Positions 17,615 through 38,779 of a stretch of DNA of 48,683 nucleotides are shown here, one piece after another. The notes beneath the pieces are model-generated. The model saw only the letters and a list, made by a program, of their open reading frames with translations. It had not been told where the DNA came from and made no database searches. A program made the position numbers and the translations under genes. Within the stretch, counting starts at the first letter, position 1, and each line of letters starts with the position of its first letter. Source of the DNA: Clostridia bacterium (GTDB lineage Bacteria; Bacillota; Clostridia; Christensenellales; QALW01); NCBI GenBank assembly GCA_017516345.1, contig JAFXDC010000007.1, positions 1 to 48,683 of the forward strand, in the 5' to 3' direction.

Positions 17615-17634
17615 ACGAAAGTAAAAAAATAAAA

Positions 17635-17771
17635 GCAGGTCGAAGGCTACGTACTCTTAAGGACAGTTTTGCGGCAAATTACCTGCCGTAAAACAGACAA
17701 AAGACAATGTTTCTATTTTCAGAGTAGCATATCGAATTTCGCCCGAAAGGGCGAGCAGACCTGCAGAGGTC
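17635..17771 (+). ncRNA. Candidate structured RNA or element end (riboswitch-like fold)
   Basis: Hand folding gives: P1 GCAGGTC (17635-17641) with GACCTGC (17758-17764); P2 GCTAC (17646-17650) with GTAGC (17724-17728), extended by TCT/AGA; P3 GTTTTGCGGCA (17666-17676) with TGCCGTAAAAC (17684-17694), including one G-U pair; P4 TCGCCC-GAAA-GGGCGA (17739-17754). AGGTC at 17767-17771 could pair with GACCT and compete with P1, as in a switch. The nearest promoter (17830-17858) starts downstream, so this RNA would need its own or read-through transcription. It matches no RNA class I recognise. It overlaps the left inverted repeat of the unit, so a DNA role is an alternative. Confidence 0.35.
17636..17671. 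repeat. Left inverted repeat of unit 1
   Basis: These 36 bases match the reverse complement of 19455-19490 at 25 positions with no gaps. The inner 22 bases (CGTAC...AAGGACAGTTTTG) match at 19. Together they bound a 1,855-bp segment holding one gene. Confidence 0.65.
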
Positions 17772-17792
17772 AATATGTAAGGTTTCCTAACA

Positions 17793-17832
17793 AAATAGGG
17801 CGGTTTGAGCGAAAGTTCAAGTCGTCCTATTT
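17793..17832. other. 18-bp hairpin with GAAA tetraloop
   Basis: The arms 17793-17810 and 17815-17832 pair along all 18 positions, including four G-U pairs, and close a GNRA-type GAAA loop. G-U pairs preserve an RNA stem but not a DNA palindrome, which hints at an RNA role. The 3' arm touches the -35 box of the next promoter. It could be a terminator of an upstream RNA, although the following T-run is short. Confidence 0.55.
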
Positions 17833-17858
17833 ACTTTTAGGCGGATTTATGATATAAT
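17830..17858 (+). promoter_or_regulatory. Sigma-A promoter of the unit 1 membrane-protein gene
   Basis: TTTACT, 17 bases, TATAAT, ending 43 bases before the ATG at 17902. Confidence 0.6.
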
Positions 17859-17901
17859 GATTATGTTACCGGTACAGCAATGTGTTTTAGGAGGTGGCGT
17901 T

Positions 17902-19284
17902 ATGCAAAACAATCCCGAGGTTATTCAAAAAGCGAAACGATATGTAAGAAGATATAAAATTTGGTGTACTGTATTTGCCATGTGCATTGTTTTGGGATAT
18001 TGCTTGGTTGCTTTGCAGGGCAACATATTTGCTACGCTTGCAGCATTAGTTGTATTCCTTTTGATGATTCTAATAGGTAGTCCGATTGTATTCAACAAGT
18101 GCATACTGTCAATATTGAATAAAAAACTGGATGCCGATACGTATCTTGCCACCGTATATCAAGGAAAATTTGATACACCTGCGGCTTTATGGCAATTATA
18201 TGGTGAATATTTTTGCGGCCATTATCAAAATGTAATAAGTATCTGCAAAATGAAATTAGATGATCCTAAAACGGCTACTCGCTATAAATATCACTATCTT
18301 ACATATCTTGCTAATGTGTATTTTGATATTGGTGATGACGATAATCTCCGAAGCGTATGTGAGCAATATGAAATTGCATTAGCTAAGGAAAAAACGAGTA
18401 AACAGGAAAATTTCCGCAAACGCTTCCCCCGAATGACTTTTTACGATCTCTATTTGAAGCAAAATATTGATGCTTGTATTACGTGGGTCAATACGCCTAC
18501 GCCTGTAATACTCAACCAATATCACCGTAAACTTTGCAAAGCAAGACTCGCTCTTATGCAGGGGAATGAAGAAGAAGCTAACGAATATTATGAGGTATTA
18601 GCAAAAGAAGTCGCCCATTTGAATTATGGTAAATTGTCGATAAAGCAGTTAGCCGAGCAAAAGAATCAAGAAGTTGATGATTCCTTACAAAAATTAAGCG
18701 TCTCGGATGAATCAGCAGATGTTACTCTATATCCTGCAAACAAACGTAAGTTTAGAAAGGCACTCGGGATTTGCTTGATTGCGTTCGTCGTGATTTATTC
18801 TGCTATAGGGATTTTAAGAGTTATAAACTCGAATAAGAGCTCCGACAGCAAGACAGATGCTTATCATGCTTATCTTGAGAATGTTCGCGTGCTTGTAGAA
18901 GAAGATTATGATAACGTAGTTATGCTGGAAGCCTTCAATCTGAAAAACGGTGAAGAAAATATTGATGCGATGTTTGTCTGCCGCACAGATGAAAAGATTA
19001 TCGTTGGATGCCTATATACATACGATGGTGACTCGCAACAATATTATGAAAAGATGACCGATATATCCATAGCATCACTGTCTGAAGATCGCTCTCCTCT
19101 TTGGTATTGTTCTTTTCCGTCAAAGACTTCTCATAATCAGATAGAAAGTTACTTTTATACAGTAGAAGCAGATGTCCCTGCGGATTATGTGCACTTATCA
19201 ACCTTTGAGATAAGTGGACAGAAAGTATATTATGTGATAACAGAGATTGTTCCGGGGATAGTAATAACTATGCCGGCAGAATAA
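17902..19284 (+). CDS. Membrane protein with helical-repeat middle region, unknown function
   Basis: 460 residues. Two adjacent transmembrane helices (about 20-38 and 41-60) are followed by about 220 mostly helical, soluble residues that resemble TPR-like repeats (YLANVYFDIGDDDNL, MQGNEEEANEYYEVLAKE). A third helix (about 288-308) leads to a C-terminal domain of about 150 residues rich in beta-strand and acidic residues. ATG 17902 is chosen for the AGGAGG 8 bases upstream. Codon use is visibly AT-richer than in neighbouring genes. It is the sole gene between the two inverted repeats of unit 1. No enzymatic motif recognised; a sensor or stress-linked role is only a guess. Confidence 0.8.
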   Translation: MQNNPEVIQKAKRYVRRYKIWCTVFAMCIVLGYCLVALQGNIFATLAALVVFLLMILIGSPIVFNKCILSILNKKLDADTYLATVYQGKFDTPAALWQLYGEYFCGHYQNVISICKMKLDDPKTATRYKYHYLTYLANVYFDIGDDDNLRSVCEQYEIALAKEKTSKQENFRKRFPRMTFYDLYLKQNIDACITWVNTPTPVILNQYHRKLCKARLALMQGNEEEANEYYEVLAKEVAHLNYGKLSIKQLAEQKNQEVDDSLQKLSVSDESADVTLYPANKRKFRKALGICLIAFVVIYSAIGILRVINSNKSSDSKTDAYHAYLENVRVLVEEDYDNVVMLEAFNLKNGEENIDAMFVCRTDEKIIVGCLYTYDGDSQQYYEKMTDISIASLSEDRSPLWYCSFPSKTSHNQIESYFYTVEADVPADYVHLSTFEISGQKVYYVITEIVPGIVITMPAE

Positions 19285-19298
19285 GAATTATTGATTAG

Positions 19299-19326
19299 CC
19301 ACGGCTCACAGCGAGCCGTGGTTTTT
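19299..19326 (+). terminator. Rho-independent terminator of the unit 1 gene
   Basis: A 9-bp stem (CCACGGCTC / GAGCCGTGG) with a 5-nt loop is followed by TTTTT. A second small palindrome (TTTTGCTA / TAGCAAAA) overlaps its T-run. Confidence 0.85.
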
Positions 19327-19340
19327 GCTATGTATAGCAA

Positions 19341-19413
19341 AAGGGAGCCTTTTTTTGTTCATCTGTGACTTGTCAATTTTCCTGACAAGCACTGCATTTG
19401 TGGACACAAATGC
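19341..19413 (+). repeat. Two-hairpin repeat module, copy 1
   Basis: It starts AAGGGAGCCTTT and contains two hairpins: CTTGTCA/TGACAAG (19369-19389) and GCATTTGT-GGAC-ACAAATGC (19394-19413). The second copy is at 38952-39026. The first hairpin is identical in both. In the second hairpin the third base pair is A-T here and T-A in the other copy, so pairing is kept by a double change. In this unit the module lies downstream of the gene. Confidence 0.75.
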
Positions 19414-19416
19414 AAT

Positions 19417-19450
19417 AATACGGCATACCTCTTTCGAGATATGCCGTATT
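19417..19450. other. Hairpin next to the right end of unit 1
   Basis: An 11-bp perfect stem (AATACGGCATA / TATGCCGTATT) with a 12-nt loop lies just inside the right inverted repeat. No T-run follows. Confidence 0.55.
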
Positions 19451-19454
19451 CTTA

Positions 19455-19490
19455 CAAAACTGTCCTTTATGGTACGCTCCTAAGGATCTG
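19455..19490. repeat. Right inverted repeat of unit 1
   Basis: Reverse complement of the left repeat at 17636-17671 (25 of 36 positions; CAAAACTGTCCTT is the most conserved part). Beyond it a T-rich run precedes the next promoter. Confidence 0.65.
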
Positions 19491-19516
19491 TTTTTTGTTT
19501 TTAATATTAATATAAG

Positions 19517-38727: not shown

Positions 38728-38763
38728 AAGACACCCCAAGGGATGCCTGCTATAAAGCAGGTT
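38728..38763. repeat. Left inverted repeat of unit 2
   Basis: The reverse complement of these 36 bases matches 40866-40901 at 30 positions without gaps. Each end holds two hairpins: CCTGC...GCAGG and a longer GGCAYCCC/GGTGYC-type stem. On the minus strand this end is followed by six T residues, so it could also act as a terminator. Confidence 0.65.
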
Positions 38764-38779
38764 TACTTGCCGAAAAATC

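Follow-up and report, generated by a model that had tools for sequence, protein, structure and literature searches.

The 1,839-bp unit that follows the hemolysin III gene (hlyIII) in the window, the whole 48,683-nucleotide stretch of Clostridia bacterium DNA analysed here (contig JAFXDC010000007.1), is very likely (probability about 0.88) a non-autonomous cassette bounded by attL and attR. On this reading it sits in the hlyIII terminator and is bordered by attP half-sites that belong to a TnpX-like, multi-targeting large serine recombinase of the DUF4368 type; the role of the recombinase and mobilisation in trans are inferred.

The ends of the unit form an inverted repeat with 25 of 36 matching bases on recount, 19 of 22 in the inner part, and its arms lie about 1.8 kb apart with one open reading frame between them. 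When the region was shuffled 60 times, one shuffle reached an ungapped 19/22 repeat, which makes the repeat by itself borderline and barely above chance. The hairpins of the flanks are far above chance (z of -8.8 on the right and -5.6 on the left), and no known RNA family scored above its gathering threshold on either flank. The G+C content of the unit is 38.2%, against 46.9% for the window, and no transposase is encoded within it. At its outermost portions the repeat is made up of the hlyIII terminator, split into two halves, and its remainder consists of recombinase half-sites. The element is bounded by two AA dinucleotides, at 17643-17644 and 19482-19483; positions 17636-17642 and 19484-19490 belong to the host terminator and lie outside it. 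Rejoining the flanks at the dinucleotide yields the window attB, the hlyIII terminator AAAAGCAGGTCGAAGGATCTGTTTTTTG, and the predicted attP at the circular junction reads AAAACTGTCCTTTATGGTACGCTCCT-AA-GGCTACGTACTCTTAAGGACAGTTTT. The uninserted sequence downstream of hlyIII is predicted to read ...GCAGGTCGAAGGATCTGTTTTTT..., an inference from sequence alone for which no natural empty site was found. The features are as follows.

17619-17642, plus strand: A-tract and 5' stem that form the B arm, the left half of the interrupted hlyIII terminator, pairing with 19484-19507
17643-17644, unstranded: attL central (crossover) dinucleotide AA, of the kind shared by the two ends of 27 out of 29 units
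17645-17670, unstranded: 26-nt attP half-site P' (GGCTACGTACTCTTAAGGACAGTTTT), from the consensus of 165 ends
17667-17693, plus strand: hairpin at the left end, which may act as a replacement terminator for hlyIII (inferred from hairpin analysis)
17830-17858, plus strand: extended -10 promoter-like site (TTTACT-17-TATAAT) preceding the cargo gene, consensus match only
17902-19284, plus strand: cargo gene, 460 aa, with GGAGG at 17890-17894; the longest open reading frame starts at 17857 (475 aa)
19297-19323, plus strand: cargo-gene terminator, also found decayed with a 3' gene fragment at G000:C32:7840-7973
19338-19413, unstranded: hairpin repeat module common to several other places in the genome (sequence search)
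19411-19455, plus strand: hairpin region about 90% identical to sequence just 3' of the large serine recombinase stop codon in loci L061, L063, L093 and L179
19456-19481, unstranded: 26-nt attP half-site P, inverted relative to P' (half-site consensus and dinucleotide alignment)
19482-19483, unstranded: attR central dinucleotide AA, on the same basis as that of attL
19484-19507, plus strand: 3' stem and T-tract that form the B' arm, the right half of the hlyIII terminator (rejoined-flank folding)

The left-end hairpin may substitute for the split terminator of hlyIII, a possibility that is inferred only. The original prediction had described a unit from 17636 to 19490. Its repeat counts were reproduced exactly, and its claims of a higher A+T content (measured here as unit against window), of several hairpins and of a missing transposase all held. 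The same is true of its remark that half of a terminator seems to follow hemolysin III, which proved the key to the present reading. Its boundaries held only in part and are corrected to the two dinucleotides.

A search of the source genome with the unit revealed a second unit on contig C24, which has the same ends and a different cargo, namely a methyltransferase-like open reading frame and a DUF559 open reading frame. Its right 140 bp are 89% identical to those of the window unit, and its left end carries the same core. The outermost parts of the repeat differ between the two units, yet are self-complementary within each and end in A- and T-tracts, resembling the two halves of a terminator. 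These statements rest on sequence searches in a metagenome-assembled genome (MAG) that is 70.5% complete. Beyond this genome, other families of the order have genomes in which the right end recurs with 84-90% identity. An exact-pattern scan of one genome per species returned at least 117 loci with this end. All of these come from Clostridia, Clostridiales or Oscillospiraceae MAGs of gut origin, many or most of them ruminant. Because the scan used a single exact end pattern, the family size is a lower bound and the sampling is biased toward that end type; most loci are MAG contigs, many of which stop inside or near elements. Pairing of ends gave 42 units, including that of the window, most of them 0.3-1.9 kb long. 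Nearly every outer stem in these units matches its own partner and differs from those of other units. Short units of about 330-370 bp contain no clear gene; in four of them (L112:1221, L143:2635, L159:5582 and L180:1318) the opposite end belongs to a variant type (in L180, TATGCGTAGTGCCCTTAAGGACACTACGC), and a sequence similar to this variant end lies near position 31,920 of contig C23 of the source genome.

The central dinucleotide and the stems were examined in 29 units paired by the end core alone, without regard to stems. An A/T dinucleotide 8 and 7 bases outside the end cores is identical at both ends in 27 of these units, against 0-8 matches at other offsets; the permutation mean is 8.9, and none of 20,000 permutations reached 27. 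The two exceptions resemble shifts of one or two bases when judged by eye. The dinucleotide varies among units (AA, TT, AT or TA), the window having AA at both ends. When flanks are rejoined at this position, their mean folding energy is -17.0 kcal/mol, compared with -5.3 kcal/mol for mixed halves; 25 of the 29 rejoined flanks fold below the 5% level of mixed halves, and the stem match exceeds the 99% level of mismatched pairs in 21. Folding was computed as RNA and does not separate recognition of a hairpin by the enzyme from recognition of a merely symmetrical sequence. Across 163 distinct arms, stem positions 2-9 are G+C-rich and the A/T tract starts sharply at positions 11-12, with A at 87-95% at positions 12-15. 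A gene 3' end lies within 150 bp on at least one side in 39 of 41 sites. The terminator targets are thereby shown from sequence, as are the boundaries, the 2-bp core and the 26-nt half-sites.

The identical dinucleotide and the rejoined terminator hairpin fit the crossover of a serine recombinase, with 26-nt attP half-sites around a 2-bp core and a terminator as attB. Two criteria for integration by large serine recombinases are satisfied: attL and attR have the same 2-bp core, always in one position, and attP is imperfectly palindromic with 26-nt half-sites. The attP half-site of the A118 integrase is 25 bp (PMC3783163). That the window holds an ordinary chromosomal gene between chance or terminator-derived inverted repeats, with no element at all, is all but excluded. 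The near-chance level of the repeat alone speaks for this explanation, but it is contradicted by the C24 unit, the at least 117 related loci, the shared central dinucleotide and the rejoined terminators.

Four loci (L086, L095, L113 and L127) have outer stems that do not match, which probably reflects rearrangement or the presence of two separate elements. In L086, L095 and L113 the outer stems come from different terminators and the central dinucleotide is still common to both ends, a pattern that recombination between two integrated units would be expected to leave and that may have arisen in this way. L127, with sugar-kinase and SIS-type genes, was considered as a large autonomous unit and rejected, its outer stems not matching. 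Separately, window positions 38730-38775 and locus L007 (G000:C64, about 960-1045) contain ends that seem to belong to a second family of elements embedded in terminators, whose half-site (ATAAAGCAGGTTTTGCTTG) is different. These ends adjoin half-terminators such as AAAAAAGACACCCC-AA and AAAAAAGCGCCCCG-AA; for the end at 38730-38775, no partner stem was found downstream.

The recombinase beside the same ends in relatives is also shown. The protein encoded beside this end in L061 is a large serine recombinase of 565 aa, in which Resolvase, Recombinase, zinc-ribbon and DUF4368 domains were identified. Further in, the locus encodes a ParB-domain protein and, downstream of the recombinase, a relaxase domain. 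The recombinase gene sits just inside the same end in five loci, the recombinase C-termini in L063, L093, L179 and, more diverged, L173 being equally distant from the end. Window positions 19408-19483 share 89-94% identity with the sequence that follows the stop codon of the recombinase gene in L061, L063, L093 and L179. The best match of the recombinase among solved structures in the PDB is TnpX (E 1.6e-35). Related recombinases at 55-64% identity are located in other families, and several adjoin end-like sequences followed by T-tracts. Two of these loci, L221 (4.9 kb, recombinase 64% identical) and L225 (3.7 kb, 55% identical), have diverged ends with both terminator halves found. The L221 open reading frame lacks the first 43 residues; its product has the same four domains, so that it and L061 meet the domain criterion of the TnpX/TndX clade. 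The recombinase gene therefore lies next to an att site in seven loci and is absent from the window unit itself. No close relative was found in the 70.5% complete source MAG at the strict cut-off used, and none of the four loci with a recombinase close to the window type has both ends on one contig. That this clade catalyses integration at these sites is inferred from the position of its gene beside the same ends, without recombination data.

A MITE-like or cargo-carrying transposon would offer a different account, in which an unknown DDE transposase acts on terminal inverted repeats of about 26 bp, makes a 2-bp target duplication and prefers terminators. The inverted-repeat ends and the cargo-free copies of about 330-370 bp are compatible with it, and the shared dinucleotide can be read as a 2-bp duplication. 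However, the dinucleotide varies, whereas Tc1/IS630-type elements have a fixed TA. Furthermore, the recombinase within the same ends is a large serine recombinase, and related recombinases with diverged ends also lie in terminators. No DDE transposase was noticed among the cargo in the Pfam scans, of which the pooled ones showed only the 25 most frequent families. This account is considered very unlikely.

Movement of whole units, as the attL/attR-bounded cassette reading supposes, is shown by recurring copies. L084, in another genome and at another terminator, matches the C24 unit from end to end with 94.5% identity over 1.3 kb; a tRNA-like sequence adjoins L084. Likewise, L112 and L180 are 97% identical over 0.34 kb, and the same cargo occurs in L057 and L058, which come from different families. 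Identity of recurring units stops at or close to the inferred boundary dinucleotide. The presence of small units, nearly unchanged, at different sites and in different genomes indicates that units of this size moved as units. Excision and re-integration by a recombinase supplied in trans from another element are inferred only. According to a review, the Tn4451 recombinase recombines sequences with 2 bp of identity without an excision factor (PMC5704250), so such mobilisation would be simple.

Searches for empty sites found no natural one. At the hlyIII locus of another genome of the genus, the upstream genes are conserved and the unit is absent, but the downstream gene is different. For C24 and L058, flanks in relatives were too diverged, and the only locus with both flank genes of L084, L126, has a solo end remnant in place of an empty site. 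The original prediction of a non-autonomous mobile element with cargo is supported, with a large serine recombinase rather than a transposase as the implied enzyme. Of the checks it had proposed, finding the same ends around other genes in the same genome was positive (C24), and no natural empty site was found. Its refuting condition, that every relative carries this gene in this position, was not observed: searches of 100 other genomes did not turn up the cargo gene, nor is it present at the hlyIII locus of the only further genome found in the genus.

The units could instead be decayed, immobile remnants of larger integrative mobilizable elements (CIME-like), with accessory genes left between attL and attR. 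In favour of this, the right end keeps the region that follows the recombinase gene, L061 carries a relaxase and a ParB-domain protein, and many fragments in the source genome are decayed. Against it stands the recurrence of small units nearly unchanged at different sites (94.5% over 1.3 kb and 97% over 0.34 kb), which makes this explanation unlikely.

The window cargo protein has predicted helical membrane segments, a helical-repeat-like middle and a beta C-terminal part in a low-confidence model. It matches no Pfam or NCBIfam family, and the structure model (pLDDT 49) was too poor for a structure search. No relative was found in 100 other related genomes or in viral contigs; the only trace is the decayed gene 3' end with its terminator on contig C32 (L003), 78% identical to the window. 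Pfam matches among the cargo of paired units include DUF559, methyltransferase, Nudix, endonuclease/exonuclease/phosphatase, MatE, AbiU2-like HEPN, HTH and DUF4932, and many cargo proteins have no family at all. DUF559 open reading frames or bare pairs are found between inverted hairpin repeats nested in units (L024:2870-3315; L057, L079, L084, L091, L102, L128 and L134), the repeats being GCCTCCCTTGTGTAAAGGGAGG... and ...CAATCCCTCAGTCAGC...GGGAGCC. In L024 the last DUF559 residues (QSLSQLR) are encoded by the hairpin repeat. The open reading frame and its repeats may represent a separate small mobile element. In addition, Type I restriction specificity and N6-methylase genes start just inside a unit end at L106:5397-7999, where the other end was not found.

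The proposed mechanism begins with a circular form whose attP would consist of 26-nt half-sites on either side of an A/T dinucleotide. The recombinase would join this circle to an attB that is an intrinsic terminator hairpin, whose A- and T-tracts lie 12-15 nt away from the loop dinucleotide; for the window, the target would have been the hlyIII terminator. The cassette would retain the end of the autonomous element, including the region 3' of the recombinase gene, and carry a different gene, equipped with a promoter-like site and a terminator of its own. Small cassettes would be excised and re-integrated by recombinase supplied from another element. A bolder reading is that the clade uses intrinsic terminators as a general landing site and serves a pool of single-gene cassettes shared among gut Clostridia. 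Each cassette would land after a gene without breaking it and bring a promoter and terminators, amounting to integron-like exchange built on a serine recombinase. This joint claim is tentative and falls a little short of even odds.

Multi-targeting is a known property of DUF4368 recombinases. The sites preferred by Cp36 have an A-rich region, an AA core and a T-rich region (PMC10083194), which fits terminators. The word "terminator" is absent from that paper and from the review of PMC5704250, and no work combining DUF4368 with terminators was found in the open-access literature searched, subscription papers lying outside the search. No report of terminators as a DUF4368 target or of single-gene cassette swarms was found, and novelty is provisional. 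If true, the reading explains what multi-targeting DUF4368 recombinases seek, namely terminator hairpins that supply an A-tract, an A/T core and a T-tract, and why their insertions are tolerated. It would also reveal cassette-like exchange among herbivore-gut Clostridia of nucleases, methyltransferases, Nudix hydrolases, MatE-family, AbiU2-like and many unknown proteins. Recombinases with a defined attP and many attB sites are potentially useful tools.

Among known systems, Tn4451/Tn4453 and Tn5397 (TnpX/TndX) are alike in recombinase sequence, 2-bp core, loose target choice and occurrence in Clostridia; integration specificity of Tn4451 is described as low (PMC5704250). The window unit differs in having neither recombinase nor mobilisation gene and in its terminator-hairpin target. 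Cp36-type recombinases share the DUF4368 domain, the many targets and the A-rich, AA-core, T-rich site, but the study describing them deals with recombinases and not with non-autonomous cassettes. The relaxase criterion of an IME is not met by the window unit, which has one gene and no relaxase, whereas L061 has a relaxase domain. CIMEs of ICEs and IMEs are likewise bounded by attL and attR without integrase or transfer genes, a criterion the window unit meets. However, they are described as decayed and as moving when they accrete with an element that arrives at a specific site, whereas the present units are small, carry genes and occupy many sites. MITEs resemble them in inverted-repeat ends and short cargo-free copies, but here the ends are read as recombinase att half-sites rather than as bearing a transposase-type duplication; a 2-bp identity at the ends exists, and no related transposase was noticed in the Pfam scans. 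Integron cassettes are also small exchangeable units, mostly of one or two genes, with a recombinase supplied elsewhere. The present units differ from them in having serine rather than tyrosine recombinase half-sites at both ends, a different att architecture, no array, their own promoter-like site and a host terminator as target.
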